From Lampropedia hyalina DSM 16112 (GTDB taxonomy: Bacteria > Pseudomonadota > Gammaproteobacteria > Burkholderiales > Burkholderiaceae_C): a DNA stretch of 64,000 bases. A program made the position numbers and the translations under genes. Below the pieces are notes generated by a model. The model had not been told where the DNA came from. It searched no databases and worked only from the letters and a program-made list of their open reading frames with translations. How positions within the stretch are numbered: the stretch's first letter is position 1; each line of letters opens with the position of its first letter. Below, piece by piece: positions 4,615 to 22,125 of the stretch. The stretch is taken from contig NZ_FQUZ01000008.1 in assembly GCF_900129055.1 (NCBI RefSeq), forward strand, positions 61,448 through 125,447, written 5' to 3'.

Positions 4615-4807
4615 GGCAATCCAAGGCGAGCGATGAATTGGTAACTCAGTCGCTGGTGCAGGCGTATGGTGAAGTTCCGTACATGGTGCTGTGTCGGCAA
4701 GACTGCTGCGGACAATGAGTTTTGCTTACCATCGTAGAAGGTTGAGCGCACATTCCATACCTTCTGTGGCTTCTTTACACTTCGTGTCTAATCATATTTT
4801 CTTTCGA

Positions 4808-5575
4808 TCAGACACTGAGCAGGACGCGCTCGCGATGCCACTGTAAATAATGCCGGTGCTCGCTGGCCAGCCAGCGCAACGTCATTCCCGAATGAATGCC
4901 AAGCCCAGGTAGATCGCTTTGGGACAGGCGGGTGCTGGTCAGCAGATGCCCGGCATCGTCGAAGCTGATCAGAAAGCGATCGAACAGCGCATCGAGATTG
5001 GCCACCAGCAGAAAGCCGTTGAAGGCATCCAACCGCTCGGCATCGTCGGCACATTCGGCCCAGGGTTTGGCATGGCTGGCACGCAGCGCTTCAGTCACAG
5101 CGACGCCGGTCACTGCGCAGGCACCACCCCAGTAGGTCAGCAAGGCATCGCGGTAACGCTCCTGCCCCACGCGCTGACGTACCAAGCGTTCGACTTCCGT
5201 GCCCCTGGCTTCGGCAGATATCGTCTCGACAGCTTGCGCCACGGCCGTGTGGTAGTCGCGCACTGCCTGATTCGGCAAGGCCTGCGACAGACTGGCCGTG
5301 CGGCGCAGGAGAGCCGCCAAATCGGGCAGGGTCGGCACAAAATACACGTCATCGGCTCCGGCCCAAGGTTGGAAACTGCGCAACAGTTCCGGCAGCAGCG
5401 CGGGCGTGGCAGGTTGAAAGCGCACCTCGAAGCCTCCGACCAATGCTGTCACCGCCGCCTGGCTTCGATGACGAGCCGAAGCCAGTATGACCGCATCGCC
5501 AGAGGATGACAGCACGTGCTCGAAGCCGTTGTCGTGGCCGGCTTTTTCGATGATGGTGCGTTGCAGAGGATTCAT
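4808..5575 (-). CDS. HNH endonuclease, last gene of the defence operon
   Basis: A 255-residue protein whose C-terminal half is an HNH_2-type nuclease. RQRVGQERYRDALL leads into GGACAVTGV, then RASHAKPW (catalytic-site His) and DAFNGFLLVANLDALFD. The N-terminal half, about 130 residues, is unassigned and could sense or bind nucleic acid. I start at ATG 5575 (MNPLQR), which leaves a 55 bp gap after the ATPase gene; a TTG at 5650 would overlap that gene and is less likely. As the final gene of the operon it is a plausible DNA-cleaving effector, controlled by the helicase, methylase and ATPase products. That role is inference; the nuclease fold is read from the motif. Confidence 0.85.
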   Translation of the reverse strand: MNPLQRTIIEKAGHDNGFEHVLSSSGDAVILASARHRSQAAVTALVGGFEVRFQPATPALLPELLRSFQPWAGADDVYFVPTLPDLAALLRRTASLSQALPNQAVRDYHTAVAQAVETISAEARGTEVERLVRQRVGQERYRDALLTYWGGACAVTGVAVTEALRASHAKPWAECADDAERLDAFNGFLLVANLDALFDRFLISFDDAGHLLTSTRLSQSDLPGLGIHSGMTLRWLASEHRHYLQWHRERVLLSV

Positions 5576-5630
5576 GTCCGCGTCCAATCTACCCGGTTCC
5601 ACTCGATGGCGCGCTTGCGCCAGCCCTCTT

Positions 5631-8390
5631 TCACAATGGTATGGTTCCAATGTTTTTCTTCAGTAGGGCCTGCGTGCGTGGTCTCCCTGCTGCTGATGTT
5701 TCGAAACCTAATCCAGACCGATAGATTTCGGGTAGAAACAATCGCTCCTCTCCGAGATTTCCATCTGTATCTTCATAGATTACACCGATCTCTTGCAGCG
5801 CATTTAACAAGGCTGCATCCAGCCCCGCCTGTGCTGCGCTGAATGGGACTTTCACGCTGCGAATCTGTTGCTGAGTCATCTGCTCAGACCATCTCCTGAG
5901 TGGCGCAATCTCGGCTTTGGCCTCTGCCACTTTTTCTTCACTGCACCGGGGGATGGCTTTGCGCATGGATTCAGGTGCCAACAAGCGATCTGGCCATGTT
6001 TGCCCTACACGTGTCGACTCTTCGTCGGCAGAAAACTTAAGGAAGCGTACCAAGTCACGTGCCTGCACATTGCCTTTTAGATCACATAAGGCGGTATATA
6101 CCCATCTTGCCGAGTGCGCCTCCTTGGATTTTTCGTTGCCCAGTTTTTTTCCCCACAGTCGCTCCAGTTCGGTTCTCAACTCTTCGAGATGTAGAGATTC
6201 TGGCGGTTTGGGTGATGGGTGTATCCCTGCCTGACAGCTCAACATGTAAGCGAGTCGTAGGAAACTTTCAGGATTCCAGTGCAAGCGGAATGGCTGAAAG
6301 CGTTGCAGCCATTGGCCCACGTTTTGACGAATTGCAGCCTGCACATAGTCGATACGCACAAACACGAGTACGCCCAAGTGAGGGTTGGGTAGCTCGCTGA
6401 CTCGATTGGTCAGGCGCAGTAGTGCTTGAATGGCTTCACGCGCTTGGGGGTCATCGGCATTGCCAAAAGCATCTTCAATACCATCGAAGACCAGGATTGT
6501 GCGTGCGGATTTTCCAATCAAAATATCGTTAACTGCTGGAAGCCCGCCTTGACTAATACCAAACTGAACTGCAATGAGCTCATCCCAAAAATCATCCCAA
6601 TGATCGGGGGGGGTCATAAGCGCTTTCGCAAGCCGCTTGCGTAGATCAGTACCATTGAGAAGCTTGGTTTTGTCACCGTTGACCAAGTCAAGTGCATGAC
6701 CCTGAGCTTTTTTTATTTCACCATCCGGGGTATCCTGAAGATTGTCAGACCACAGCATTGGGAGGATGGCAGCGTCAGTAGTTTTAGATGAATCAAAACC
6801 CAGCCTTCCCAGAAAGGCTTGCCATGAGCAGGCTTGTACAATCTGACGGAAGGTAAAGGTTTTGCCGGCCCCCTTGGCGCCGATCATCAGTACATTAGGA
6901 AGATCGTTGGCAAAGTGCTTGCCAAGATTGAGCAAAGGTTCGGTAGCGAGGATTGGGCTGGTCTGGCTACTGTCTGCAAACTCAGCCACTTTGCACACTT
7001 CATGCAATTTTTTGGCTGACTCTTGCCTTGATGATGTGCTGGTTTGGCCGTCAACTGCGACCGATACCTCCTGATCAGGCTGGGAGTACAGTGCCTGCGC
7101 CCATTCCGTGGCACTGGCATACAAGCGTTGGGATTGAGGCAGGTTTTCCAATGCCTCACGTACTGAGCCAATGGACATCAACGGACTCAAGAATTCGGCA
7201 TCCAACCATTGTACGGATGGCGTCAGTGGATCCTCTACGGGATAGGAAGAGCCCAAGACTTTCAAAGCATTTTCGTAGTGCCCAGCCTCGCGTAGTTCTT
7301 TCGTCAAAAGGCTTAGTACAACGGTAGGGCGATCTGTTTTTTTCCAATCCCCGGACAACTGGTGATTGCTGGTGTACAAGCGGCGAAGTACCTCTGCCAT
7401 GCCCAAAACAGATTGACGGGCAACGGTACTAACAAAGAAGTGATCAATGCGCGGGTCAAACAGGATCGGGCTGGCCAACTCACTCAAACCCGCTCGCAGG
7501 TCAATGAATACCGCGTCAGCTCCAAGGCGCTTCCCCAGGGCATGCAAATGGTCGCTCAGCTGCCATGGATTATCCGGGTTTCGCGCCAAGTGCTCTGGAG
7601 TAACAGGCATGTCTTGAATCTCGGCTAGATCCAATGCAGCAGGCAACACGAACAGCTCGCGCTGCAATCCTCCCAGGCTCAGTGACGTCTTACGCAACTC
7701 ATCGGCAAAAAAATCCAAGCTTGCATCGACACCATCAGGAGGGTAGTGCAAGGCTTCGAGAAACTGTACAAAAGAGACGGTAGGGCGATTACTGTCATCC
7801 AGCCAGAAACTGATGCCAGGGGCTTCCAGATCAGCATCGACCACGAGGATTTTCCTGACATCTGGGCCAGTATCACGCAAGCATGCTGCCACATAAGTCA
7901 TCAACGTAGTGGTACGCCCCACGCCACCCTTGAATGAATGAAATGACACCAGTTCTGGGCCACCATTAAAACGTGCAGGCATTCGAGATTCAGGGGCACC
8001 TAATGTTTGAGGCTCACCAGGCGGGGTTTCACCATCCCCTCTATCTGTGGGTAAGTAAGTAACATCGCGCCAAAGTGGATAAGTTTGCCCCACAGTTGGC
8101 AAATTTGCTCCCTGCTCCTCCAGCAAATCCATGGGATAGGCAGTGTTGCCAATCCGCAACTGAATGGCTCGCGGATCACGCCGGTAGGCGCGGCCGAAAA
8201 CCTTATCTAACCATGCATCCACATCATGGGCTGACCCAGGTGTGTGACGTATTTCCATGCCATCAGCGAAGCAATCCACTCCCACTATGCATTGAGGGAA
8301 TCGTGTCCACAGCGCCGTGTATTTTTTGAGAAGGCGCTCCACGTCCAACCATGTCAAAAGATGCCCAGCCATTGAAATGTGATCGGTCAT
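5631..8390 (-). CDS. KGGVGR-type ATPase with a second C-terminal P-loop domain
   Basis: A 919-residue protein with two nucleotide-binding modules. A small N-terminal domain of about 120 residues precedes a ParA/MinD-like domain whose deviant Walker A reads FKGGVGRTTT near residue 155, with LVVDADLEAPG about 40 residues later. A second P-loop, GAKGAGKTFTF, lies near residue 500, followed by ILVFDGIEDAFG (Walker B-like), as in AAA/STAND ATPases. Start ATG 8390 overlaps the stop of the HEPN-like gene by 4 bp (ATGA) and has GGAG 7 bases upstream, so translation is coupled. It sits between methylase/HEPN and HNH genes, so it may couple sensing to nuclease activation. KGGVGR ATPases are recurrent in defence loci, but their mechanism is not established to my knowledge. 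Confidence 0.85.
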   Translation of the reverse strand: MTDHISMAGHLLTWLDVERLLKKYTALWTRFPQCIVGVDCFADGMEIRHTPGSAHDVDAWLDKVFGRAYRRDPRAIQLRIGNTAYPMDLLEEQGANLPTVGQTYPLWRDVTYLPTDRGDGETPPGEPQTLGAPESRMPARFNGGPELVSFHSFKGGVGRTTTLMTYVAACLRDTGPDVRKILVVDADLEAPGISFWLDDSNRPTVSFVQFLEALHYPPDGVDASLDFFADELRKTSLSLGGLQRELFVLPAALDLAEIQDMPVTPEHLARNPDNPWQLSDHLHALGKRLGADAVFIDLRAGLSELASPILFDPRIDHFFVSTVARQSVLGMAEVLRRLYTSNHQLSGDWKKTDRPTVVLSLLTKELREAGHYENALKVLGSSYPVEDPLTPSVQWLDAEFLSPLMSIGSVREALENLPQSQRLYASATEWAQALYSQPDQEVSVAVDGQTSTSSRQESAKKLHEVCKVAEFADSSQTSPILATEPLLNLGKHFANDLPNVLMIGAKGAGKTFTFRQIVQACSWQAFLGRLGFDSSKTTDAAILPMLWSDNLQDTPDGEIKKAQGHALDLVNGDKTKLLNGTDLRKRLAKALMTPPDHWDDFWDELIAVQFGISQGGLPAVNDILIGKSARTILVFDGIEDAFGNADDPQAREAIQALLRLTNRVSELPNPHLGVLVFVRIDYVQAAIRQNVGQWLQRFQPFRLHWNPESFLRLAYMLSCQAGIHPSPKPPESLHLEELRTELERLWGKKLGNEKSKEAHSARWVYTALCDLKGNVQARDLVRFLKFSADEESTRVGQTWPDRLLAPESMRKAIPRCSEEKVAEAKAEIAPLRRWSEQMTQQQIRSVKVPFSAAQAGLDAALLNALQEIGVIYEDTDGNLGEERLFLPEIYRSGLGFETSAAGRPRTQALLKKNIGTIPL

Positions 8391-8824
8391 TTGAGTTCTC
8401 CTTGAATCCAGTCCAGCACCTTTTGCAGTTGCTGTTCGCAATCATGGTCGGTAGGTGCTTCGCATTTTCCACCGTAGCGCCATACCTGGTGCAAATCGCC
8501 AAACTTGCCGTTACGGGGAAGTTGCGCTTGGCCACGAAGAGCATTCGGCAATCGAAAGCTTTCCGGGAGGGAAAGGGCTGACCCCACGTTCAGATCCTTG
8601 AGAACTCCACGCAAATCGTGGCCGGTTCGGTTAATGTCCTCGCTGTCAAACAAGGTACGCCCCTTTCGCTTGAGCCAAACCGCTTTCAATCCACACTCCA
8701 CCGCATAAAACAACAATAAGCGATGTGGGTTCTGTCGATCGCCTGCCACCGCAGGCGTTGCAACAACTGATAGTTCGCGCAATGCTCGCGTCAGTTCTCG
8801 ATCCGTAAAAGGCAACGCGCTCAC
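8387..8824 (-). CDS. Small HEPN-like protein
   Basis: A 145-residue helical protein. LLFYAVECGLKAVWLKRKG followed about 20 residues later by RTGHDLRGVL resembles HEPN-type proteins, in which a helix with a Cys/Glu patch precedes a GHDL turn. The canonical Rx4-6H RNase motif is not exact here (R-T-G-H), so catalytic activity is uncertain. It starts with GTG at 8824, overlapping the methylase stop by 4 bp (GTGA) and preceded by a strong AGGAGG six bases away. It ends by overlapping the ATPase start (ATGA). The tight coupling on both sides argues for a stoichiometric partner. It could be an RNase effector or a structural adaptor. Confidence 0.7.
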   Translation of the reverse strand: MSALPFTDRELTRALRELSVVATPAVAGDRQNPHRLLLFYAVECGLKAVWLKRKGRTLFDSEDINRTGHDLRGVLKDLNVGSALSLPESFRLPNALRGQAQLPRNGKFGDLHQVWRYGGKCEAPTDHDCEQQLQKVLDWIQGELK

Positions 8825-11800
8825 ACCAAACCTCCTGTTTCCAATTTATCCCACGCTTCCAGCACCAGCCGTTGAGTGCGGTATTCGCCGAACTCTTTCA
8901 GCTCCTTGTTTTTGAGCACACGGAAGGTTTCGCTGGGGTAGTCGTCGCCCATGACGTCGGTGGGGTCGAGGATGTAGCGGAGTTCTTCGCGGGTGAGGCC
9001 GTAGAGTTTGGCGTACCAGGCGTCGAGTTCGGCGCGCAGGGTGGCGCGGCGGTCGGGGTCGAAGGCGAAGGGCGGGCCTTCGTAGCCCAGATCCTTGGCC
9101 CAGGCGGCGAGGTCATGGGCGGTGTAGGTCAGTTCCATTACGCGTGGGACGATGAACGCGAGGTCAGCTTGGATGTAGCGATCTGGCGGAAAAATCGGAA
9201 GTTGCTTTGTGATGAAGTCCGCTAGATGCGTACCACCAATTTTCTGCCGAGCAACAAAATCAAGCACCAAAGCATTCAAATTTGATACCAAGCAGGCATA
9301 AAACACCGCCAGCCAGGGAGAACCGCCAACGTTTATACGGATAGTGAAATCGGTTCCTAACAACGGCATTACCGATGCAATCACAGTGCGTTCATCTGTA
9401 GCACGGCAGATGTCTCTCCACCCGATCAACCAGCCATGTTGCCAGCCTTTATCGTTGAGGCGTTCTTCTACTTCTCTGCGGTTGGTCCAGTAGCGCGGGA
9501 TGACAGTGAAGTCTGGTGCTTGTTTTTCGGCAATAGCCACATCGCGGCCACGGCCATCGCTGTCGTAGGTGGCCCAGCGGTGGTCGAATTGATGGATGAG
9601 TTTGGCTTCATACATCGGGGAAAATCCAGCCATTGGCTGTCGAACACAACTTCCGACGACCTCGGCTTTCGCCATGTCGAATGCTCTGCGAATTTGGATG
9701 TGCCACGGGTTCTGCACGGGGTTTACTACCTTGGCCTGCTGACCCGCACCTGCAATGACAGCATCGCGCATCAGCACCGGGGCGGCGCGGTAGAGCTTCT
9801 TGGTCAGTTCCGCGTCGCGCTCGCTGCGGAACACTGGGCAGGTGAGCGTGTTGGGGTTGATGAGGCGGAATTCCTCGGGCGTGAGGGTGAAACGGCGGCG
9901 CGGGTCGGCCAGTTGGCTGACCTGGGTGGCGAAGCAGACGAATTCGGCCTGGTCCGCTGCGCCCAGGGTGAGCAGGCAGAACTTCATGCGGCTATCGACG
10001 GCGGGGAACAGCTTTTCGCGGTTCTCGATGTCGTACAGGCTGACCAGCCGCCGGTTCTGGGTGATGTGCCCGAAGTAGGCTTTGGTGCTGTCGTCGGTGG
10101 CGATTCCGGTGGGCACGATGAATCCGGCGCGGCCGCTGTCGGCATGGATTTGCAGGATGGTTTCGGCAAACAGCGCGTAGGTGTTCACGTCGCCCACGCC
10201 GGTGAGTGGATAGCGGCCGCCGTCGGTGCCTTTCACATGGGCGAACACGCTGGCTGCCTCCGCCGTACGGCGGGCGGTGACGAATTCGCGGTAGAGGCGT
10301 TTTTCGGCCTCGTCCTCATGCACCTCGTGGGCCAGGTCGGGGTACAGGTGGCGTGCCAGCATGCCTTCGCTGAGCCACTGGATGCGCTGGGCGCGTTCGG
10401 CCTTATTGCGGGCTTGCGCCACGTCGCGGTGGCGGGTGGCGAAGAATTCTTCTTCTTGCAGCTTGATGCGTTCCCACGGCGGATTACCCAGCACACAGTC
10501 GAAACCACCCTGCGCAAACACCTGCGGGAAGGCCAGCGGCCAGTGGAACACGCGGGCCTGTTCGCAGGCCGCGCGTGCGGCGGCGATGGGCGCGGCGTGC
10601 TCGGTCTGGGCGCGTTGCGGGTCGGTCAGCAGCGCATGCAGGGTGATGCTGGTGGGCACAGTTTCTGCCGTGTCCTCCGTCTTGGGCAGCAGGTAGGCGC
10701 CCACCAGCGCATCGGCGGCGTGGGCCAGCGGGCTGTGGGCGGAGTCTTCCAGAAAGCGGCGCCAGGCCTGTTCCTTGGCGGCCACCTGCTCCGGGGTGTC
10801 AGCGGGCAGGGTTTCGATGGCGCGCAGGGCATCGAGGCCGCTGCAGTTGTCCACGCTCAGCAGCATCTGCCTACCTTGCAGGTCCCTGGCAATCTGCTTG
10901 AGACCGGCGGCGTTGGCCTTGGCCAGTACCTTGCAGACATTCTTGTCGTCGCCGCTCAAGGGCTTGTAGGCGTCCTTGGCGATGCCTTGTTCCAGCGCGT
11001 TCAGGTCGGTCAGGCCCAGCAGGGCGTCGCCCACCTGCAGGTGGTGGTCGAGAAAGCCCAGCGGGCGGCCTTCCTCGTAGCCTTCCAGCCACAGCGCCAT
11101 GCGCGCCAGTTCGATGGCCATGGGGTTGCGGTCCACCCCGTAGATGCAGCAAGTCACCACTTCGCGCAGGGCGTGGCGGTAGTCCTGCGGCTGGATGGCG
11201 CCCTCCTGTCCACCTTCCAGGCTGCGCAACTGGGCCAGTTTTTCCGCCAGCCGGCGGGCGGCGGCGAGCAGGAAGTGGCCGCTGCCACAGGCCGGGTCGA
11301 TGACGCGGATGGCCAGCAGCGCTTCGGTGGGGTTAGCCGGGTTAGCGGACAGACGCTGTTCGATGACGGGGTCGAGCGCGCTCTTGATCAGCTCCTGCAC
11401 CAGGCTGTCGGGGGTGTAGTAGCTGCCGGTGAGTTTGCGGGCGTTGCCGGCGGTGCTGCCTTCCTCGGTGCGGCCGACGAAACCGAAGGTGCGTGCGGGC
11501 AGGTCGATGGCGGGCACCAGTTCCAGCAGGCTTTCGTAGACGCTGCCCAGCTCTTCCGGGCCCATGTTGCGGTAGTCCACCGGCACCAGGCTTTGCGCAC
11601 CGGCTGGCTTGGCCCAGCGCAGGTGTTGCATGGCTGCAAGCAGGTGGGCGTTGTCCAGGCTGGCGGCATCCAGATCGGGGCATTGCCCGAAGGCGAACAG
11701 GCCGCCCAGGGCGGGCAAGGCCAAGCGCGACTCGCCTTGTGCCAGGCTACGGAAGACGATGCGAATGGCCTGCCACTGGTCGTCGTGCCGGGTGCGGGCG

Positions 11801-12837
11801 CGGCGTTTGAGGCACAGCTCGCGCAGGCGGGCCAGGGCATAGCCTTCGGCATAGGCGCGGCGGGCGGCCAGTGCTTCGGCGCTGTCGTCCTGCGGGTGCA
11901 GCACGCCGCGCTCTTCCACGGTGAAAACGAAGATGAGCCGGTAGATCAGGCGCAGCAGTTGTTGGAAATAGTCATCCTTGCTGAGCGTGCCGTCGTTCAG
12001 GGCGGCGCGTAGGGCGTGGTTGGCAGGGTGTTGCAGGAAACCTGCGCCGAAGGTCAGCAGGGCCTGCTCGACGCCGTTGCGTAGGCCATCGCGCACCCGA
12101 GTGCCTTCCTGCTGGCCTTCGCTGCGCCATTGTTCCCAGATGCACGCCGTAGCGCCCTGGCCGGGGCGGGATGCGCGGCTGGCGTGCAGTAGACGCCAGA
12201 CGTTGGCGAATTCGGCATAGCGCTGGCCGCCGAGCAGATCGGCCAGATCGACTTCGAGAAAGCTGGGACGGGTGAGCGAGGCAGCGTCGCGCAGCAGCCG
12301 CAGCTGTCTGCCGTTGCTGACGATGCCCCATTGCAGCGGTTCGCTGGCGTTGAGCAATTCCTGCATGGCCTGGAACGGGGCTTTCTTGCGGTTGCCGCCG
12401 CCTTGCACGGCAAACCGCGCGTCAGCCTCGTCCAGGCCCAGAGAGTGTGGTGCCACCAAGACGGGCAAGGTACCAGCCATGAGGCTGACCGGGTAACGCA
12501 GTTCACCCACTTGCTGTGCTGCCGCGGCTTGCGAGGTGGCGTAGCCAAAGGCATCGCGCAGCAGTTCGTGGACGAAGGCGGTGGTGAGCTGCGCGGCATC
12601 GACGTCGGCGCGTTCCATCTGCGCGGCGAAGTGCTGCCATTGGGCGCAGGCGATCTGGAAAGCGCGGCTGTATTCGTCCTTGAGCTTGACGCCCTTGGGG
12701 GTACCGTAGTCGGCCTCGCTCTGGGCGCTGGCGCGGCCCTGAGCGGCTTTTTCCAGTTGATCGGGCAGGAATAGCCCGCCTTCGAGCTTGAGGGTGGGAA
12801 GGTTCAGCGTGGTCTGGGCCTTGCGGATGCGTTTCAT
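8821..12837 (-). CDS. N6-adenine DNA methyltransferase, Eco57I/PglX/DrmMI type
   Basis: A 1338-residue protein. SAM-binding motif I, DPACGSGHF, lies near residue 514, and the catalytic motif NPPWERI near 783 marks it as an N6-adenine methylase. VDRNPMAIELARMALWLEG between them is typical of Eco57I/PglX-like enzymes. The N-terminal 480 residues and C-terminal 500 residues are likely recognition and interaction regions; no nuclease motif was found, so it is not an obvious type IIG enzyme. Length and neighbours match DISARM class 1 DrmMI better than a stand-alone methylase. Start ATG 12837 has GGAGAAGAA upstream and lies 24 bp after the SNF2 gene stop. Expected role: mark host DNA so that the island spares it. 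Confidence 0.9.
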   Translation of the reverse strand: MKRIRKAQTTLNLPTLKLEGGLFLPDQLEKAAQGRASAQSEADYGTPKGVKLKDEYSRAFQIACAQWQHFAAQMERADVDAAQLTTAFVHELLRDAFGYATSQAAAAQQVGELRYPVSLMAGTLPVLVAPHSLGLDEADARFAVQGGGNRKKAPFQAMQELLNASEPLQWGIVSNGRQLRLLRDAASLTRPSFLEVDLADLLGGQRYAEFANVWRLLHASRASRPGQGATACIWEQWRSEGQQEGTRVRDGLRNGVEQALLTFGAGFLQHPANHALRAALNDGTLSKDDYFQQLLRLIYRLIFVFTVEERGVLHPQDDSAEALAARRAYAEGYALARLRELCLKRRARTRHDDQWQAIRIVFRSLAQGESRLALPALGGLFAFGQCPDLDAASLDNAHLLAAMQHLRWAKPAGAQSLVPVDYRNMGPEELGSVYESLLELVPAIDLPARTFGFVGRTEEGSTAGNARKLTGSYYTPDSLVQELIKSALDPVIEQRLSANPANPTEALLAIRVIDPACGSGHFLLAAARRLAEKLAQLRSLEGGQEGAIQPQDYRHALREVVTCCIYGVDRNPMAIELARMALWLEGYEEGRPLGFLDHHLQVGDALLGLTDLNALEQGIAKDAYKPLSGDDKNVCKVLAKANAAGLKQIARDLQGRQMLLSVDNCSGLDALRAIETLPADTPEQVAAKEQAWRRFLEDSAHSPLAHAADALVGAYLLPKTEDTAETVPTSITLHALLTDPQRAQTEHAAPIAAARAACEQARVFHWPLAFPQVFAQGGFDCVLGNPPWERIKLQEEEFFATRHRDVAQARNKAERAQRIQWLSEGMLARHLYPDLAHEVHEDEAEKRLYREFVTARRTAEAASVFAHVKGTDGGRYPLTGVGDVNTYALFAETILQIHADSGRAGFIVPTGIATDDSTKAYFGHITQNRRLVSLYDIENREKLFPAVDSRMKFCLLTLGAADQAEFVCFATQVSQLADPRRRFTLTPEEFRLINPNTLTCPVFRSERDAELTKKLYRAAPVLMRDAVIAGAGQQAKVVNPVQNPWHIQIRRAFDMAKAEVVGSCVRQPMAGFSPMYEAKLIHQFDHRWATYDSDGRGRDVAIAEKQAPDFTVIPRYWTNRREVEERLNDKGWQHGWLIGWRDICRATDERTVIASVMPLLGTDFTIRINVGGSPWLAVFYACLVSNLNALVLDFVARQKIGGTHLADFITKQLPIFPPDRYIQADLAFIVPRVMELTYTAHDLAAWAKDLGYEGPPFAFDPDRRATLRAELDAWYAKLYGLTREELRYILDPTDVMGDDYPSETFRVLKNKELKEFGEYRTQRLVLEAWDKLETGGLV

Positions 12838-12861
12838 GGTTGTTCTTCTCCAGGCCGAGGC

Positions 12862-15651
12862 TTATAGCGAGTCAGGCAGCAGCACGTACACGCCCATCAC
12901 ATCCACCGGCAGGCAGGGGCTGACGCTGTACTGGCCGACGTCACGGGTGGCCTCGCGCACGCGCTGATGGTCGGCCAGCAGGGCATCAGCCCGCTGTTGG
13001 GCCACCGCTTGCAGTTGCTGCGGGTGCGCGGCGAGGAAGTCGAGCGCGGTGCGGATTTCGCGCTGTACCGCCTCTGGCGGCAGGTTGCCGCTGGGTGTGC
13101 ATTCGAGCAGGCGACTCACGCCATCGTCGGCCAGCCATTGGGGAGCGTTGCGGCCCTGCACCGCAAGGGCAACGGTTTCCTCCGCCATCATTTGGAAGGG
13201 TTCGCGACGGCGTACGTAGCTGAGCTGGTGGCGCAGGCGCAGAAGATAGAGGGTGGTGATGACCTCCACGTCATTGGTAAGAGTGGCAGCACAACGGGCG
13301 GCCAGCGGACGTTCGCCTCCAAGTGCGTCTTCCAACAGGTGCTGGGCCAGCAGGCCAACCAGCGGGTGACTGCGATGCAGTTCGCTGAAGTCGATGAGCT
13401 GGAGTTTGTCGATGCCCTCGTCGGCCAAGCGTTGGCGCAGGGCTTCGGGGAGGTGCTGCGGCAAGAAGCGTGCAGTCTGCTTGCGACCGATTTCCAGTGG
13501 TGACCCTAATCGCACGCAAGCGCTTTGCAGGAAACGCTGCACGTCAGCCTGGATGCCCAGAGCCTGCTGCTGTTTGTGCCATTCGGGCAGCACCTCGTCT
13601 GGCTTGATGCGACGCTGGGCGAACACGGTGCGATTGGCCTTGGCTTTTTCCAGCGCGTCGCGCCATTGGGCTTGCAGAGGAGCGAGCAATTGCTCCGACT
13701 CACCGAAGTCGAATGCGACCTGCGGCGATGTGGTGCGACTGTCGCTGCGTTTCATCAATGCCGCCTTGACCAGGGCCTGATTGATGCGGGCTTCGTCCTC
13801 GGGCATGGGAACGAGCACGCCGAGCTCCTTCTGAATGGCCTCGCCCTTCTTGAGGATGACGTTGAGCACGAAGCCATCCACCGGGTTGTCTTGCCCGTAG
13901 AGCATGGTGCAGCGCACTTCATCGGCCTGCTGACCGAAACGATCGACGCGGCCTTCGCGCTGTTCGTGGCGAGTGGGGTTCCAGGCCAGGTCGTAGTGGA
14001 CGACAGCGGTGAACAGATGTTGCAGGTTGATGCCTTCGGAGAGGCAGTCGGTGGCGACCAGGATGCGTTGCTCGGCATCCTCCATGTCGTCCACGCGCTC
14101 GCGGCGTTCTTCGGGGGTGAGTTCGCCGGTGACGGCATCGACGGTGGCTTTGGGGAAAGCGGCCTTGAGGTGTTCGGCCACGTAATGGGCGGTGGCGATG
14201 TAGCGGCAGAACACCACCGGGTGGTAGCCATCCTTCACCAGGAGGCCAATATGCCGGATGAGCGCAGCCAGCTTTGGATCACCGGCCTTGCCGGAAAGAC
14301 GTTGCGCGTCGGCGATCAGGGCTTGCAGGCGCGGCGCGGCGTCCTGCACCTGGGCAGGCGGCTCCAGATCACTGCCGGAGAGGTCATCGGCCTCGCCATC
14401 ATGCAAGCGTTCATCGCTGAGGAGGGGGGCGTCAGGCAGGGTTCCTTCCAGCCTCGTGGTCAGAGCCTTGACAGCGGCAGCGGGCGACGACGCCACGCAG
14501 CGCAGCAATGCCAGGGTGGCGTACCAGATGAGGCGGGCGCCGCCTTGCTGTTCTTTCTGCTCGACGGTTTCAGCCAGTTCGCGGCAGTAATCCTGCACGG
14601 CGTCGAAGAACGCGCCCCATTCGCCGCTGAGCTGGTAGGTGAGCTCGGTTTTCATGCGACGGGGAAAACCTCGTCCGTCATGGGTCTCGGCCTGCCATTC
14701 AACGATATCCTTGCGACGGCGCTGGACGAAGTGGCGGGCCAGTTCCTGACGCAGCGGGTCGGAGGCCGTCATGCGGCCTTGCAAGGCCGCAAAGCGCGGA
14801 TCGAGCAGCGACAGCAAGTTGTAGAAGGCGGTTTCGTCACCGGAGTGAGGGGTGGCGGTCAGCAGGATCAGGTGTCGCTGCGCGTCACGGGCAAGGCGTT
14901 GCAGCAACTCGAAGCGCAATTGCTTGCCTGCGCCGCTGCTGGCGCAGGTGTGAGCCTCGTCAACGATGATGCATTCGGGGGCGGTGGCGAGAAACTGTTC
15001 GCGGTGGCGTTCGCTCTTGATGTAATCCAGGCTGACGACCACCACGGGATGATGGTCGAACAGGCGCACACCATGCGGAAGATCACGTTCGATGCGGGAG
15101 GCCGAAGCCGAAGTCAACGCCACGGCCTGAAGGTTGAAGCGGGTTTCCAACTCACTTTGCCATTGCTCGACAAGGTGTGGCGGGCAGAGGATGGCCAGGC
15201 GGGCGATTTCGCCACGGTCCATGAGCTCGCGTGCGATCAGGCCGGCCTCGATGGTCTTGCCGATGCCTACGTCATCAGCAATCAGTAGGCGCACAGTGGA
15301 CAGGCGCAGCGCCATCAGCAGCGGCACAAGCTGATAGCCGCGAGGCTCCACGGCGATATTGCCAAAAGAGCGGAACGGGCCGGCGCCGGCGCGCAGGGTC
15401 AGGCGCAAGGCATCGCGTAGCAACAGCGCGGCGGCGTGGTTGCCGGCGCGCGCGGGATCGGGCCAGTCGAAGGTGGCAGGTTCGACGGGATGCAGTTCCA
15501 ACTCGGGGATCAGGGCAATGCTTTCGTCATCGGCACCGCTCAATGGGCGCAGGCGCAGCCAGTCGCGGCGGGAGTCGCTTTGCACCACCCATTCGCGGCC
15601 TCGGGCGCGCACCAGGTTGCCGGGCAGAAAGTCGTGTTCGAGGATCGTCAT
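12862..15651 (-). CDS. SNF2-like helicase, DrmD type
   Basis: A 929-residue superfamily 2 translocase with all main motifs visible. Walker A DDVGIGKTIEAG lies near residue 125 and the DEAH box (VDEAHTC) near 228. LTATPHSG follows about 35 residues later, and motif VI HEQREGRVDRFGQ is near 560. A long C-terminal tail of about 350 residues has no recognised domain. DrmD of DISARM class 1 is a SNF2-like protein of similar size next to a methylase, as here. The start ATG 15651 has AAAGG six bases upstream and is six bases from the stop of the large helicase gene. It probably translocates on invading DNA together with the 1757-residue helicase. Confidence 0.88.
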   Translation of the reverse strand: MTILEHDFLPGNLVRARGREWVVQSDSRRDWLRLRPLSGADDESIALIPELELHPVEPATFDWPDPARAGNHAAALLLRDALRLTLRAGAGPFRSFGNIAVEPRGYQLVPLLMALRLSTVRLLIADDVGIGKTIEAGLIARELMDRGEIARLAILCPPHLVEQWQSELETRFNLQAVALTSASASRIERDLPHGVRLFDHHPVVVVSLDYIKSERHREQFLATAPECIIVDEAHTCASSGAGKQLRFELLQRLARDAQRHLILLTATPHSGDETAFYNLLSLLDPRFAALQGRMTASDPLRQELARHFVQRRRKDIVEWQAETHDGRGFPRRMKTELTYQLSGEWGAFFDAVQDYCRELAETVEQKEQQGGARLIWYATLALLRCVASSPAAAVKALTTRLEGTLPDAPLLSDERLHDGEADDLSGSDLEPPAQVQDAAPRLQALIADAQRLSGKAGDPKLAALIRHIGLLVKDGYHPVVFCRYIATAHYVAEHLKAAFPKATVDAVTGELTPEERRERVDDMEDAEQRILVATDCLSEGINLQHLFTAVVHYDLAWNPTRHEQREGRVDRFGQQADEVRCTMLYGQDNPVDGFVLNVILKKGEAIQKELGVLVPMPEDEARINQALVKAALMKRSDSRTTSPQVAFDFGESEQLLAPLQAQWRDALEKAKANRTVFAQRRIKPDEVLPEWHKQQQALGIQADVQRFLQSACVRLGSPLEIGRKQTARFLPQHLPEALRQRLADEGIDKLQLIDFSELHRSHPLVGLLAQHLLEDALGGERPLAARCAATLTNDVEVITTLYLLRLRHQLSYVRRREPFQMMAEETVALAVQGRNAPQWLADDGVSRLLECTPSGNLPPEAVQREIRTALDFLAAHPQQLQAVAQQRADALLADHQRVREATRDVGQYSVSPCLPVDVMGVYVLLPDSL

Positions 15652-15657
15652 GCGCCT

Positions 15658-18600
15658 TTATTCCTTGGAACCGAACACATCGGCGTGCGCGGCGAATTGT
15701 TGTGGCCAGCGTGAAGCGTCCGAAAAATCGAGCACCTGCCAGCCTTTGTCCTGCAATACGCTGGTGGTCTGCTCATCCACCGCTGACAGAAACACCAAAG
15801 CACGAGATGCCTTGTACTGGGCCGCTGCGGTGGCTGCGCCATTGTTGACGGACACGTTGACCGCATCAGGTTGTATAGCCCCCGCCTGGCGGAGCGCGGA
15901 CAGCCAAGCATCAAGTGGCTCGTCAGCTGAAGTCGTCGAGGCAACGGTGACCGGGCTGCTCGTTACGGGCTGTACCTGGGCATTGGCCAGCGCGACCAGC
16001 AGCTTGAGCGCATCCGCATTGCGGCGGTTGATGTGTTCGTGGTCCGGCTGGTTGAAGTAGGACAGCAGGCACTGGTAGCAGCCGGCTTCACACTGATGAT
16101 TGCCAAGCACATCGGTCTGTTCCAGTGACGGCAGATCGTCCAGCGTCCAAATGCCGCTCTGCGGTAAGCGATAGTGAATCAGTTGCAGGGCATTACTAGC
16201 TACGAGTGCAAGGTCGTCGCGATTGTTTGCCAGGCGAGTGAGCACACCCGCACCGCCTTCGGTCGCTTCGTAAAACAGCAAGGCGCGGCGCTCGTCGGAC
16301 TTTGGCAGTGGCTCGACCACCAGTTCGGATTCCTCGATCTGGAAGGTCATTTCGATGCCGCGCTTGAGTGCGGCCTGCAACGTCGCCATGGCCTCCAGAG
16401 ACAGGGCATGTATGGGAGCGAAGATCAACAGATTGCGATGATCTTCCACAAAGGGAACGATGCGCTGGTTGGGCACCTTCTCCAGCAAAGCATCGTCGCC
16501 GCCCTTGTCCTCTTCCGCATCCGGTGCGTCCTGCTTGCTCCAGGTGCCCGTGATGGGGTTGATGTAGAAGCCCAGTTGCTCCTTGTCCTTGCGCCTGCGC
16601 CAGCCGCGGTTGATGCGCCAGATTTGCGCAGCGGGCGCGTAGGTGAGTTCGCCCAGCACGTCCTCGCCTTGTTGGATCGTGGCCTTCTGCTGCTGGATAC
16701 GACCATCGGGCCCGGGCAGGAAGCGGTAGGTAGTTTGCAGTTCGAAGCCCTGACGCTGGCGCTCCTCGTCGTTGATGGAGATGCGCTCGGTGGCCACGGT
16801 CTCCACGGTTTCGATGCGGTAGAGCTCGCGCACCCAATCGTGCTCGGTGAGCAAGGCGTCGCAGTTCTCGCAGCGATTGACCAGCGGCTGTTCGCCGCCA
16901 GGCTCGCCGAGATGGCCGTAGCCGCACTGGCTGCACACCAGCGAGGCAATGGTGGCCAACTGGCTGTTGCCGGAAATGTGGTCTGTATTCCCTACGTTGA
17001 GTTTGGCACGCACCACGCGGTACATGCGGCCCTGGTGATAAATGAGGCTGCGGGGGCCGAATTCGGACAGGGCCAGGAAGCGTGGCCGGCTGACCATGCT
17101 GCCTTCGTCATCCTTGCCATTGACGGCCTGGCCGCCACGGGCGGGAATCCAGGCCATCAGCGGCAGGCGCGGGAAGTTGTAGCCGGGCAGGAAGCCTTGG
17201 CTGGCCAAGTAGCGATAGGTGTAGAAGTCGTTGTTCTGGCCGTTGCCGGACTTGAGCAACACGGCGTACTGGCGCGCGGCGTCGCCGTAACGGCGCTGGG
17301 CATTTTGGCGCTCAGTGTGCGAGGCGGTATGGCTCTTGACGATGCGATCAGCCATATCCATCTGTTGGCGGGTGGCATCGAACAGCACGCGCCAGCGCTC
17401 CAGCGCCCCAGAGAACGCTTGCGCCGCGTTGTCGATGACCTGGCGCACATAGTCAGGCGTGAACCAGGCGCTGCCTTCAAGCTCGCCCTCAAGCTGGTTG
17501 ATGACCCGGTCGGCACTGGCCAAGGCCCGGTGCTGTACAGCCTGCGCCCGCAGTGCTTCGTGCAAGGGCTGTTTCAGTGGTTTTTCGGGTTGGTCGAGAT
17601 CCAGCATGGGCGCAATGCTGTCGTCCAGCGGCACCTGGGTGCTGGCCAGCCAGACCGCTTGCAGATGGCTGTCGATGAGATCGCGATTGCTCAGGTCGAG
17701 GGTTGGCGCACGCACTACGCCATGCACCATTTGCTCGGCATTGTGGAAGAACCACTGGTCATGCGGACTGAGCGCCGCGCAATAGGTGATGACCAGCGCC
17801 TGCTGACCCGAGCGACCGGCACGGCCGCTGCGCTGAGCGTAGTTGGCGGGGGTCGGCGGCACATTACGCAGGTACACGGTGTTGAGCGCGGAGATATCCA
17901 CGCCCAGCTCCATCGTGGGGGAGCAGAATATCACCGGTAGCCGCTCCAGTGGCGTTTCGTGGGCTGGGTTCTGCGCCCAATCCTGCCTGTCCTTTTCGGT
18001 GTAGCGAAAACGCTGCTCCAGCAGTTGCCGGCGTGGTGCATCTACCTGGGCGGTATGTTCCTGGGCCTCGAAGTCGAACAGCGGATGCGAGGGTCGACGC
18101 AGCAGGTCGGCGATGCTGAGATATAGGGCTCGGAAGTACTGGTTGATGCGATTGCTTTCTGCCTGCTGTTCATCGGCAATCAGGCACCAGTCGAGGGCTG
18201 CCGCGTTTAAACGCCAGCCTGCAAGCTGGGAGTCAACGGCGTGTTTTTGCACGTAACCATAGTTCCCGGCTGCTTTAAGCAGCTCTTCGATCAGCTCGGC
18301 CCACTCGGCATCTTTCCACTGCGCGATCTCGCCAGCGCAGGCGCTGTCGCGCCAGAATTTTGCGGTCTTGATGTCCCGTAACAGGCGGGAGCGCGGGCCG
18401 CCCGGCACTAGGTCGGTACGCGGCTTGCCCTTGTATTCCGGGCGCTTACCGAAGATGAGATAGCGGCCGGTATCGAGCTTCTCATCGGCAGCGAAGGCCC
18501 AGCGTTCATTGAGGTAGGTATGGGCGCTGGTGCGTGCCTTGTCCTGCTCGACCGGATCGAGGTAACGACTTTCCAGGCACAGGTGGCGGCGCAGGGCGTC

Positions 18601-20931
18601 GAACAACAACTCGTACAGACCGGCCCGTTGTGCTGCCGTCAACTTGTTCAAGGTGCCGCTGGCAGCAAAGATGCTGGCGTCGGCGCAGAAGGCATCCAAA
18701 TCTCGATACCGAATCTGCAACAGGCCGAGTTGATCCAGATTCGGGTTGTTGAAACGCCAGCCACGCCGCAGATCACGCAGCAGTCGGTAGGCGATGATGA
18801 AGCGCAATGTGCGTTGCGCCTCTTGTCGGGCCAGTCCCATGAGCTTGGGGGTGCGCAGATACTCCACCAAGGTCGCTTCATCGACCCCTTGAAAGCCGAG
18901 GGCCTTGAAGACGCTTTCAGCCAAGTGTTCTTCATCGAGTTGGCCGCCGCTGCCCTGTAGTGCGCCGATCAAGCCGGCACGCAGCGTCAGCAGGAAAATG
19001 AAGTCATTGAAATGCCCCGCCTGCAGAGCGGCATCCTGGCGGTTGTCGGTAAACCCAAGCAACTTGCGTGGGTCAGGCTGCCCTGGCGCAGGTTCGGAAA
19101 ATGCGAACAATTGCTGCAAGGCCGCCAGGGCAATCATGGTGGTGGCCGAGGAGCGGCCTTCGCCGGACAGGCTGGAGAGGCGGTTGGCATCCTTGCCGTG
19201 GGCTTCGTGTGTCGTGCCGCAGTTCAGGCAGAAGCGGAACTTGCCTGGGATGAACCAGAACTCGGCCCCTGAGCCCGTTTTTCCCTCGGCATCGACCGTG
19301 ACCACATAGGGGACGGCATTTTTGTAGGCTTGCTTGACTTTGGGTTCACTACGGCTGAGGTCGATCCAGGTCTCCGGCAGGTCTTCGAGCAGACCACCGT
19401 ATTGCTGACCAGATACCAAGGGGCACAGAAAGCCATAGCTGGCGTCGTCTTCCGCTGCGATGTCGTCGATTTCACGCGAACTGAAGCTGACAGGTTTCTG
19501 TGTGTGCCAGACAGGCAGGTATTCCTGGCCACAATCGCGGCAGAAATGCGTGGGGTAAAGCAGCACATTCTCTTGCTGTCGCCCTGGCGCGAAACGCTGG
19601 GCATCGAGCGTGACATGGCGCTTACCTCGCGCCTCCAGCGTGGTGAGTACCTTGCCGGGACCGCTGATGAACTGGTGCAGCTTGAACGCGAAAGGCGGCC
19701 TGCCCTGGGGCGTGCGCACATCATGGGCAGCCACTAGGAAGCGCTGCAGGGCGGTGCGGGCGGCTTCAGGCTGGCAACCCGCGTCTTCGGCGAGACAGCG
19801 GCTGGCCTCTTCCAACATCATGGGTCTCGCCCGCCTGGGAGGCTCGTCGGCAGGTAGTTCGATACCCAGGTTCAATTCCACCCAGATGGATAACGGATCA
19901 TTGCGAAAGGCGTCGAAGTCAGCCCAGATATCCTGCTTTCGCGTAATGGCCTCCGGTAGTTCCGTGCGGATGGCGTTGACGTCCTTGAGCGGGTTGGTGA
20001 CGCGCTCCAAGGTCTCGCCGATGACGTCATGCTCGCTGATCCGGGTACCAAAAAGTTTGCTGGCCACATCGGCCACCACGCGGTTGCGGTCGGCTTGGCT
20101 ACCTGTGCTGGACATGGTGGCCGACGTGCCGATGCAGACCAGTTGCTCGGCTTTCAAGCGTTCTCGCAGACGCCGCACCAGCAAGGCAACGTCCGCCCCT
20201 TGACGGCCACGATAGGTATGCAACTCATCCAGCACCAGAAACTCAAGCCCCTCGCAATGCTCCACCACGCGCCGATCCACTTCGTCGAAGCGCGTGAGGA
20301 TGTACTCCAGCATCATGAAGTTGGTCAGCAGGATGTCGGGGGGGGCATCTGCGATGGCGCTGCGTTCCGCCCGGCTTTCCTGGCCGGTGTAGCGCTTGAC
20401 GGTGAAGGGACGATGCTCTGGCGCATAGCCATGCAGAAACTTGTCAAGTTCTTCCAGCTGGCTGTTGGCCAGAGCATTCATCGGATAGATGACAATGGCC
20501 CTGGTACGCGCTTTGCCATCAGATTGCTTGGCCTTGAGAATGCGGTCGATGATCGGGATGAAAAAGGACAGGGACTTCCCCGACCCCGTTCCGGTCGTGA
20601 CCACATAGCTTTGGCGTTCCTGGCCTTTGGCCAAGGCTTCCATCTGGTGCTTGTAAAGATGCAGGGGTTCTGGCGAACCTTCAGACTTCCCGACCTGGAA
20701 GATCTCTGCGCAGGCAGCGTGTAAGACCCCCTGCGCCGCCAGGTTCTGCACCGTGCCCTGGCGTTGGTAATTCGGGTTGATCTGCACCAGCGGCTCAGGC
20801 CAATAGCGGCCTTGCGCATATTGGTGTTCGACCTCGGCTTGGATATCAGGCGCAGCGATACGAACGAAACTGCGGGAAAAGCTTCCGTATCGTTCGATGA
20901 GCTGGTCGCGGAATTGGAAAACGTTATCCAT
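15658..20931 (-). CDS. Giant DEAD/DEAH helicase with C-terminal DUF1998 module (DrmA+DrmB-like or DruE-like)
   Basis: A 1757-residue superfamily 2 helicase. Visible motifs are Walker A TTGTGSGKS near 115, a DELH box (LDELHTYRG) near 230, GTSATM shortly after, and motif VI QRSGRAGRSG near 1034. Behind the helicase core lie Cys pairs (CSQCGYGH; CENCDALL) and near 1610 a CEAGCYQCLLSYF cluster, the DUF1998 signature of MrfA-like helicases. In DISARM the helicase (DrmA) and DUF1998 protein (DrmB) are usually separate genes; Druantia DruE is a single giant protein of this kind. This gene is therefore either a DrmA-DrmB fusion or a DruE relative. It lies 49 bp after fic and 6 bp before the SNF2 gene. 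Confidence 0.9.
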   Translation of the reverse strand: MDNVFQFRDQLIERYGSFSRSFVRIAAPDIQAEVEHQYAQGRYWPEPLVQINPNYQRQGTVQNLAAQGVLHAACAEIFQVGKSEGSPEPLHLYKHQMEALAKGQERQSYVVTTGTGSGKSLSFFIPIIDRILKAKQSDGKARTRAIVIYPMNALANSQLEELDKFLHGYAPEHRPFTVKRYTGQESRAERSAIADAPPDILLTNFMMLEYILTRFDEVDRRVVEHCEGLEFLVLDELHTYRGRQGADVALLVRRLRERLKAEQLVCIGTSATMSSTGSQADRNRVVADVASKLFGTRISEHDVIGETLERVTNPLKDVNAIRTELPEAITRKQDIWADFDAFRNDPLSIWVELNLGIELPADEPPRRARPMMLEEASRCLAEDAGCQPEAARTALQRFLVAAHDVRTPQGRPPFAFKLHQFISGPGKVLTTLEARGKRHVTLDAQRFAPGRQQENVLLYPTHFCRDCGQEYLPVWHTQKPVSFSSREIDDIAAEDDASYGFLCPLVSGQQYGGLLEDLPETWIDLSRSEPKVKQAYKNAVPYVVTVDAEGKTGSGAEFWFIPGKFRFCLNCGTTHEAHGKDANRLSSLSGEGRSSATTMIALAALQQLFAFSEPAPGQPDPRKLLGFTDNRQDAALQAGHFNDFIFLLTLRAGLIGALQGSGGQLDEEHLAESVFKALGFQGVDEATLVEYLRTPKLMGLARQEAQRTLRFIIAYRLLRDLRRGWRFNNPNLDQLGLLQIRYRDLDAFCADASIFAASGTLNKLTAAQRAGLYELLFDALRRHLCLESRYLDPVEQDKARTSAHTYLNERWAFAADEKLDTGRYLIFGKRPEYKGKPRTDLVPGGPRSRLLRDIKTAKFWRDSACAGEIAQWKDAEWAELIEELLKAAGNYGYVQKHAVDSQLAGWRLNAAALDWCLIADEQQAESNRINQYFRALYLSIADLLRRPSHPLFDFEAQEHTAQVDAPRRQLLEQRFRYTEKDRQDWAQNPAHETPLERLPVIFCSPTMELGVDISALNTVYLRNVPPTPANYAQRSGRAGRSGQQALVITYCAALSPHDQWFFHNAEQMVHGVVRAPTLDLSNRDLIDSHLQAVWLASTQVPLDDSIAPMLDLDQPEKPLKQPLHEALRAQAVQHRALASADRVINQLEGELEGSAWFTPDYVRQVIDNAAQAFSGALERWRVLFDATRQQMDMADRIVKSHTASHTERQNAQRRYGDAARQYAVLLKSGNGQNNDFYTYRYLASQGFLPGYNFPRLPLMAWIPARGGQAVNGKDDEGSMVSRPRFLALSEFGPRSLIYHQGRMYRVVRAKLNVGNTDHISGNSQLATIASLVCSQCGYGHLGEPGGEQPLVNRCENCDALLTEHDWVRELYRIETVETVATERISINDEERQRQGFELQTTYRFLPGPDGRIQQQKATIQQGEDVLGELTYAPAAQIWRINRGWRRRKDKEQLGFYINPITGTWSKQDAPDAEEDKGGDDALLEKVPNQRIVPFVEDHRNLLIFAPIHALSLEAMATLQAALKRGIEMTFQIEESELVVEPLPKSDERRALLFYEATEGGAGVLTRLANNRDDLALVASNALQLIHYRLPQSGIWTLDDLPSLEQTDVLGNHQCEAGCYQCLLSYFNQPDHEHINRRNADALKLLVALANAQVQPVTSSPVTVASTTSADEPLDAWLSALRQAGAIQPDAVNVSVNNGAATAAAQYKASRALVFLSAVDEQTTSVLQDKGWQVLDFSDASRWPQQFAAHADVFGSKE

Positions 20932-20980
20932 GGAGAGTCCTCACTGATCCATCTTGTGGCCAATCGCCAGAACCGCTGTA

Positions 20981-22048
20981 CTACCGGAGGTGCCTGCTGT
21001 AATGCGCTTCCATTTCGCCCCTCGCCCCTCGCCCCTTGCCCGTTGATTCGATCAACCCCTCTGATTTCATCGCCCGCAGCACTAGCCGCATCATGTCCCT
21101 GCTCACGCCTGGGCAGGCCTCTTCAATCTCGGAAATCGCGAACGGCAGGGTGCGCCCCAGAACTTCCGTCCGCACCCGGTCGCCCTTGCTGCCACGGCCA
21201 CGCTCAATGGTGCCGACACGCTCCTCGAACTCACGGTAGGCCCGTAGCAAGGCGCCCCAGAAGTAGTCGAGCCAGGGCTTTACGTCGTGCTGCCCCTGGT
21301 GCCAGCCCTGCGAGCTTGCTTCAAAAGCGTTTCGTGAGCCTTCCTTGGTATCTTCGAAGATGCGCTCCAGGCTGATGTAGCGACCCACGGCATAGTCGAA
21401 GTGGTAGAGCAGCAGCAAGGTCAGCAAGCGGGACATGCGGCCGTTGCCGTCGGGAAACGGGTGGATGCACAGGAAGTCGAGCATCGCCAGCGGTGCCAAC
21501 ACCAGAGGGTCGGCCAGATGCTGGTCCAGTGCGGTGGCGTAGTGCCCGGTCAGATCGGCCATTGCCATGGGCGTGAGGTGCGCAGCGACTGGCTGGAAGC
21601 GCAGACGCGAAGTGCCGTCTGAGTGACGCTCGATGATGTCGTTGTTCGTAGCCTTCCAGCGCCCGCCCGCCTGCGGCATATAGCGGTACAGCAGGGTGTG
21701 CAGTTGCAGCACTACGCCTTCGCTGAAGGGCATGTGCGCGGCCGATTCGTGGATCAGCGCCAGGGCGTCACGGTAGCCGGCGATCTCCTGTTCGGAACGG
21801 CTCTTTGGCGTTGCATTGCGGATGACCAGAGACTTCAGCCGCGAGGGTGCGACGACAACGCCTTCCAGGCGGTTGGATGACTCGGTGGATTCGACTACCG
21901 CGATCTGGCGTAGCCCTTTGAGGGCTTCGGGCGACTGCGCGGCGTAGAGTTGCTGCTTACCCTGATACTCGCCCAGTGTGCGCAACGTGGCAGCCTGAAT
22001 GCCATCGAAGCGAAGCGCGGCAAGGTAATCGAGTGTGAGCGAGTGCAT
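20981..22048 (-). CDS. Fic-family AMP/NMP-transferase, first gene of the island
   Basis: A 355-residue Fic protein. The catalytic motif HPFPDGNGRMSR is complete, with the His general base and the GNGR phosphate loop. An N-terminal (S/T)xxxEG inhibitory motif is visible as SNRLEG near residues 58-63, making this a self-inhibited (class II) Fic; its Glu would block ATP until displaced. A winged-helix-like C-terminal part (SEIEEACPGVSRDMMRLVLRAM) may bind DNA or mediate regulation. Such proteins modify target proteins, often as toxins. It starts the minus-strand island behind an AT-rich inverted-repeat region, 49 bp ahead of the giant helicase. It may be an operon regulator, an added toxin or an unrelated passenger. 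Confidence 0.9.
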   Translation of the reverse strand: MHSLTLDYLAALRFDGIQAATLRTLGEYQGKQQLYAAQSPEALKGLRQIAVVESTESSNRLEGVVVAPSRLKSLVIRNATPKSRSEQEIAGYRDALALIHESAAHMPFSEGVVLQLHTLLYRYMPQAGGRWKATNNDIIERHSDGTSRLRFQPVAAHLTPMAMADLTGHYATALDQHLADPLVLAPLAMLDFLCIHPFPDGNGRMSRLLTLLLLYHFDYAVGRYISLERIFEDTKEGSRNAFEASSQGWHQGQHDVKPWLDYFWGALLRAYREFEERVGTIERGRGSKGDRVRTEVLGRTLPFAISEIEEACPGVSRDMMRLVLRAMKSEGLIESTGKGRGARGEMEAHYSRHLR

Positions 22049-22059
22049 GGTAATGTAAG

Positions 22060-22125
22060 TAAAAGCTATCTAAATGAGGTAATAATAGCTTTTAAATAGG
22101 GAATTTTTTCTCAAAATACCTCATT
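22060..22125 (-). promoter_or_regulatory. Inverted-repeat operator/promoter region ahead of the defence island
   Basis: This AT-rich stretch lies 12-77 bp upstream of the fic start. A perfect 10-bp inverted repeat, TAAAAGCTAT at 22060-22069 and ATAGCTTTTA at 22085-22094, has a 15-base spacer. A second repeat, AATGAGGTA at 22073-22081 and TACCTCATT at 22117-22125, interleaves with it. Two nested palindromes just upstream of a start codon suggest repressor binding sites. No dedicated regulator gene lies in the island, though the Fic C terminus is winged-helix-like. Exact -35 and -10 boxes are not clear. Confidence 0.55.

Follow-up and report, generated by a model that had tools for sequence, protein, structure and literature searches.

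Lampropedia hyalina DSM 16112 carries on contig NZ_FQUZ01000008.1 a run of seven minus-strand genes, the core of which resembles the recently described ARMADA Type I systems (Bell et al., 2025 preprint; PMC12458937). This run was analyzed within a stretch of 64,000 nucleotides (positions 61,448 to 125,447 of the contig), hereafter called the window. All seven open reading frames (ORFs) reported in the initial annotation were confirmed on the minus strand within 4808–22048 of the window, as called at 20981–22048, 15658–20931, 12862–15651, 8821–12837, 8387–8824, 5631–8441, and 4808–5650. The gaps of 49, 6, and 24 bp, the 4-bp overlap at 8821–8824, and the ATPase-HNH module at the end of the unit were also correctly described there, but two of the starts need correction. 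The KGGVGR gene most likely starts at ATG 8390, not 8441, which gives a 4-bp overlap with the stop of the HEPN-like gene, as in locus L005. The HNH gene most likely starts at ATG 5575, which gives a protein of 255 amino acids (aa), as in relatives, and a gap of ~55 bp upstream. With these corrections, the features are as follows.

20981–22048, minus strand: Fic/AMPylase-type gene, 355 aa (Pfam Fic, 2.1e-14, and motifs)
15658–20931, minus strand: YprA/DruE-like helicase (ArmC-type), 1757 aa, with DEAD, Helicase_C, and MZB/DUF1998 in a single protein (Pfam)
15661–16014, minus strand: C-terminal domain of this helicase, a Vsr-like nuclease site in relatives, here with the catalytic motif missing (alignments)
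12862–15651, minus strand: SNF2/BrxHII/DrmD-like helicase (ArmA-type), 929 aa (PADLOC, NCBIfam)
8821–12837, minus strand: PglX/DrmMI-like N6-adenine methylase (ArmB-type), 1338 aa (PADLOC, Pfam)
9090–10433, minus strand: variable C-terminal half of the methylase, predicted target-recognition region (drop in protein identity against loci L026, L027, and L079)
8387–8824, minus strand: HEPN-like small protein, partner of the KGGVGR protein, slot insert (adjoins KGGVGR in 8/8 loci)
5631–8390, minus strand: KGGVGR-type double P-loop ATPase, slot insert (NCBIfam AAA_KGGVGR)
5576–8848, minus strand: exchange slot, from the methylase 3' end to the HNH gene (no DNA match against L026, L027, and L079 despite matching flanks)
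4808–5575, minus strand: terminal predicted HNH_2 nuclease, 255 aa, with VcaM4I-type active-site residues (Pfam HNH_2, 1.5e-10)

In gene content and order, the three genes at the center agree with ARMADA Type I, and the island is not a DISARM-Druantia mosaic. The general order of ARMADA Type I, which is common in Pseudomonadota and Actinomycetota, is YprA, BrxHII-like, PglX-like (PMC12458937), and the window has a YprA-like helicase, a BrxHII/SNF2-like helicase, and a PglX-like methylase in this order. The first of these is a YprA homolog from the ARMADA/Druantia branch that also contains DUF1998; its best PADLOC match is DruE (4.4e-93, 311 bits, against 1.1e-18 and 64 bits for DrmA), its MZB domain lies at residues 1518–1622 (Pfam), and its nearest solved sequences are 9tu7 and 9wae. 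In Druantia type III, druH adjoins druE; no DruH match to the seven window proteins was found among the PADLOC matches listed. Helicase motifs are intact in both the YprA-like (DELH, QRSGRAGR) and the SNF2 protein (DEAH, QREGRVDRFGQ), and Walker A sequences TGTGSGKS and DVGIGKT are readable in the two translations; the search pattern used did not match either. Along its full length, the SNF2 protein matched a PADLOC model named DpdE (690 bits), and it matched DrmD with 289 bits, while its score against the NCBIfam DrmD model was 330 bits, below the cut-off of 610. Because the first match is full-length although no further Dpd gene is conspicuous in the window, the model (PDLC02853) may mix DpdE and ARMADA-type proteins. 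The methylase matched DrmMI of PADLOC (2.6e-71) and Eco57I of Pfam (5.3e-19), with DPACGSG and NPPW intact.

The tail of ARMADA YprA is a predicted active Vsr nuclease (PMC12458937). Its motif is absent from the window helicase, for which reason we file this operon as an ARMADA Type I-like variant and not as a canonical member. No marker of ARMADA Type II, a GajB-like helicase with an N-terminal RelE-like domain after the core, was found among the seven genes; Type II, which protects E. coli against phages without growth arrest, shares the three core families, but differs in gene order and in its RelE-GajB fusion protein, which is absent from the window (PMC12458937). The main text of that preprint, supplements aside, mentions neither Fic nor HEPN and has HNH once, in a reference title, and no mention of an exchange slot was found in its introductory parts, legends, and conclusions (PMC12458937). 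A literature search, judged from its listings, gave no further report of an ARMADA system with HNH.

Related loci were collected through the SNF2 gene, which was found, own genome counted, in 16/399 whole genomes of the order, 7/369 of the class, 13/398 of the phylum, and 24/399 of the family, four samples that may overlap. One phylum match was already part of the set, and the new loci numbered 15, 6, 11, and 23, respectively; 20 plasmid loci from 64 matching records and locus L007 were added, for a total of 77 loci including the window, all annotated by profile hidden Markov models built from the window proteins. The nuclease motif and the HNH gene were scored in 61 loci, while 16 of the 77 were dropped because the helicase end was not usable, the helicase scored below 400 bits, or the DNA downstream was too short.

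The helicase tails are of two kinds in the alignments, with the motif [P/A]DF.Y ... DGPxH either present or absent; it is absent from the clade of the window and from a second large clade, and present elsewhere. When eight tails were compared with Pfam at a loose limit, all five intact ones matched DUF559 (four above its cut-off and one at 20.4 against 20.6), and three of these also matched MTES_1575, below its cut-off, while the three degenerate tails, including that of the window, matched neither family. An HNH gene follows the methylase in 30/32 loci with a degenerate tail, 5/27 with an intact one, and 0/2 scored as partial (Fisher p 5e-10 for 30:2 versus 5:24, computed without regard to kinship). 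The loci of the family, fetched once the motif rule was fixed, have HNH in 6/7 degenerate versus 4/10 intact cases. Degenerate loci with HNH come from genomes of the window's own order and from plasmids of alpha- and gammaproteobacteria, Acidithiobacillus, and Hydrogenimonas (Campylobacterota). On visual inspection, one locus scored as partial, L095, seems to have an intact motif (SDFFY, FIDGPHH), and one counted as degenerate (L048) has its helicase in pieces.

VcaM4I was identified as the nearest solved relative of the HNH protein (6yex, 7.2e-20), the match covering only residues 135–277 of the 280-residue ORF, and a structure search with the predicted model (mean predicted local distance difference test [pLDDT] score 71) again ranks VcaM4I first. 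The active-site residues named for VcaM4I are H224, N241, D250, and D254, and alanine changes of H224, D250, and D254 impaired the enzyme (PMC7897488). In the window protein the HNH motif ASH...NG...D..FD is intact, and H168, N186, D195, and D199 correspond to these four residues and are conserved in 37, 37, 36, and 37 of 37 sequences, respectively. VcaM4I is an EVE-HNH endonuclease that recognizes modified cytosine through its N-terminal EVE domain (PMC7897488), whereas the window protein has an alpha/beta domain in this place, for which no clear match was found; no EVE-type reader matched there, which is weak evidence.

A missing helicase motif and a lineage-wide HNH gene with conserved active-site residues are thus evident in the sequences. 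We read this as an HNH gene that was present before or at the loss of the motif and has been kept since, that is, as lineage-wide retention rather than many independent swaps, because a single loss could suffice on the tree; the HNH protein would then replace the lost helicase nuclease. On balance, and by a modest measure, we favor the view that the window holds an ARMADA Type I-like operon in which the helicase is without a Vsr-like motif, the separate 3' HNH protein likely does the cutting, and the slot is occupied by a HEPN-like/KGGVGR pair that likely acts alone.

Several observations weigh against this view. Two degenerate loci are without HNH, L055, where IS21 genes directly follow the methylase, and L097, and HNH also stands beside an intact motif in five loci. 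Four distant loci (L098–L101) were dropped for weak helicase scores; none of them has HNH, and three score as degenerate by pattern, although keeping a DF, so that counting them would give HNH in 30/35 degenerate loci. In a tree built from 64 helicases after removal of their tails, two changes are required for the degenerate state (three in another tree run) and eight for HNH, and the approximately unbiased test does not reject a single origin of that state (p-AU 0.22); because the loci are related and the changes few, 30:2 does not stand for 32 independent events. The HNH model is weakest around the active site, with pLDDT <50 over residues 152–189 including H168, and the HEPN fold of the small slot protein is unconfirmed, its predicted model being poor (pLDDT 55). 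Finally, the HNH protein might work on its own as a modification-dependent enzyme, like VcaM4I.

Extended to the whole locus, this last idea makes the terminal HNH protein an independent, perhaps modification-dependent restriction enzyme that merely forms the invariant right-hand boundary of a mobile unit, the core having no nuclease of its own or using one of the host, such as RecBCD. The modification dependence of VcaM4I, the five HNH genes beside intact helicases, and the DNA match of the window unit, which stops at HNH in three genomes, speak for it. Against it stand the retention of HNH in 30/32 degenerate loci, in genomes of the order and on plasmids of other groups, with only 5/27 among intact ones, and, as weak evidence, the unmatched EVE-type reader; we regard this explanation as less likely.

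The preferred reading of an ARMADA Type I-like operon also has to account for the genes between the methylase and HNH. The DNA of three near relatives (L026, L027, and L079) matches the window from ~22105–22120 to the end of the methylase at 88–93% over long stretches, and again over HNH at 84–90%, stopping at 4797–4804; no match of these three to the window was found between ~8826 and 5618, where they hold other genes, namely an SMC-like protein or GAPS4-related genes. At the level of aligned DNA, the content between methylase and HNH has thus been exchanged. The methylase itself is 93–96% identical to theirs in residues 461–800, and 64, 77, and 54% identical in residues 801–1250 (L026, L027, and L079, respectively).

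Slot genes were grouped by BLAST and named from ten proteins run against family libraries (eight slot proteins of four loci, one methylase tail, and one protein from L057); in loci without HNH, the slot is merely the DNA downstream of the methylase. A ~650-aa SMC-like protein with weak LmuB/DUF2326 similarity follows the methylase in 26 loci (e.g., L026:16272–18215), of which 25 have a related methylase C-terminal tail, and it is a frequent partner of this operon type. A DUF3696-type AAA ATPase was found in nine loci (as a fragment in L007), an RNA ligase-like protein in four, PDC-M25A/B in L049, and a UvrD/HelD-like protein in L057. In L007, GapS4a (305 bits, cut-off 270) and GapS4b (354 bits, cut-off 300) both exceed their NCBIfam thresholds, which identifies GAPS4 there, and GapS4-related pieces are present in the slot of L079. 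Together with an NA37-like gene, GapS4a and GapS4b of L007 lie at L007:6264–9340, within an ARMADA-type operon. The slot is <350 bp in nine HNH-bearing loci (L030, L031, L037, L038, L047, L051, L056, L075, and L088).

In the window, the slot holds the HEPN-like/KGGVGR pair. The KGGVGR protein (NCBIfam AAA_KGGVGR, 158 bits, cut-off 90) has a double P-loop, KGGVGRTT and a second Walker A, GAKGAGKT, and the HEPN-like gene accompanies it in 8/8 loci found by KGGVGR. The hallmark of the HEPN superfamily is a helical fold with an Rx4-6H motif. The small protein has no match in Pfam, PADLOC, or NCBIfam and no plain Rx4-6H among its conserved columns, which include HRLLLFYAVECGLK and WRYGG; one homolog (P0196) is named HEPN domain-containing protein in UniRef. 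Six of the eight loci (L001–L003, L005, L006, and L008) gave no match to any of the other five window genes; among these six, L008 ends inside KGGVGR and L003 extends only ~0.7 kb beyond it, so that HNH is not excluded in these two. The Pfam-named neighbors are a DNA polymerase beta clamp (L001), a class I tRNA synthetase and methionine synthase (L002), a helix-turn-helix gene (L003), an SBF-like transporter and MutS (L005), SufBD and isocitrate dehydrogenase (L006), and an IPP transferase (L008). Where ARMADA genes are not near, the pair is mostly beside housekeeping genes, as a candidate two-gene defense module. The remaining loci are L007, with the order SNF2, methylase, three genes, ATPase fragment, HEPN, KGGVGR, HNH, and L004, outside the SNF2 set, where only a methylase end precedes HEPN, KGGVGR, and HNH. 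Because no ARMADA gene is near in six of the eight other loci, the pair is likely a guest in the ARMADA slot, and it is probably an autonomous two-gene module.

The Fic protein has intact HPFPDGNGR and SNRLEG motifs, the latter being the class II inhibitory motif. Its gene is intact next to YprA in six loci (window, L026, L027, L079, L080, and L081) and broken in L029; these seven form one clade, that of the window and its nearest relatives, and Fic was not found in the rest of the survey, so that it marks one seven-locus subclade.

The initial annotation had described the seven genes as one defense island, and in this reading the pair and Fic would be essential parts of one new system. A tight operon with overlaps and the partly repeated order of L007 agree with this, and so do the relatives of SNF2 (97%) and HEPN-like (81%) that are both named Achromobacter ruhlandii, with longest contigs of 732,494 bases each. 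However, none of the 76 other loci, found by the SNF2 gene or holding it, has all seven genes, and the pair occurs in only one of them, L007, the sequence of which is cut upstream of SNF2. The pair does without ARMADA genes nearby in six of eight loci, and the G+C content at third codon positions is 0.50–0.53 in the pair (KGGVGR 0.50) against 0.74–0.78 in Fic and the core, with 0.68 in HNH. We therefore consider a single seven-gene system improbable.

A fused drmA-drmB subtype of DISARM class 1 is hardly credible, since, although DrmMI and DrmD models match the methylase and SNF2 proteins, the helicase is much closer to DruE (311 bits) than to DrmA (64 bits), SNF2 falls below the NCBIfam DrmD cut-off, and a single fused protein is found instead of separate drmA and drmB with a DrmA-type helicase, with no phospholipase D nuclease match to the seven proteins among the matches listed. 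The initial annotation had read the island as a mixture of DISARM class 1, Druantia, and KGGVGR/HNH parts, an emphasis that the ARMADA Type I content and order of the core do not support. Its judgment of a defense-type island was right; the fusion of DrmA/DrmB-like parts (DEAD, Helicase_C, and MZB/DUF1998 in one protein) and the absence of DrmC were correctly seen, and the recently described relative that it had thought possible is ARMADA Type I (PMC12458937).

The unit lies between two chromosomal genes, ychF (YchF GTPase, 22221–23573) and malonyl-CoA decarboxylase (1506–3062), and ~100 bp separate the ychF stop from the point where the unit starts to match the DNA of its relatives. Elsewhere in the window, short ORFs at 49644–49997 and 63690–63980 appear by eye to be pieces of IS110-type and TnpB-type genes.

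Defense activity, methylation, the identity of the cutting protein, and the role of the pair are inferred. In the proposed mechanism, the variable C-terminal half of the methylase would determine the site at which this enzyme marks host DNA. Phage DNA without the mark, or its replication intermediates, would be the target of the SNF2 and YprA helicases, and the HNH protein would cut the DNA that they expose. The slot module would act as a second, independent layer, in which the KGGVGR double ATPase may sense infection and release its HEPN-like partner as a toxin, and Fic, in a single subclade, would serve as a regulated accessory. A precedent is found in Druantia III with Zorya II, where the YprA relative DruE, with RecBCD, promotes the formation of DNA structures, which are then cut by the HNH nuclease ZorE; ZorE, however, belongs to another system than DruE, which has its own nuclease (PMC13192584). 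In DUF499-centered BREX-related (Hma) systems, which are alike in their helicase, methylase, and ATPase and differ by the DUF499 ATPase, nearby nucleases including HNH were termed compensatory where the helicase has no fused nuclease (PMC12839542), so that the idea of compensation is not new as such.

More tentatively, and at a little less than even chances, ARMADA Type I may have a large HNH branch that works as a chassis, in which the helicase nuclease was lost and a stand-alone HNH protein took over, while the gap between methylase and HNH docks complete, independent defense modules that are swapped within one operon (GAPS4, SMC/Lamassu-like, AAA-RNA ligase, and HEPN-like/KGGVGR) and the target-recognition half of the methylase changes as well. 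If this is true, a branch that has HNH and in which the helicase nuclease is degenerate would join a system class described in 2025, and it could be used to test directly whether cutting can pass from a YprA helicase to a separate nuclease. It would also define a site within one defense operon where other defense modules are exchanged, a slot that could be mined for undescribed modules, of which the HEPN-like/KGGVGR pair is one candidate.
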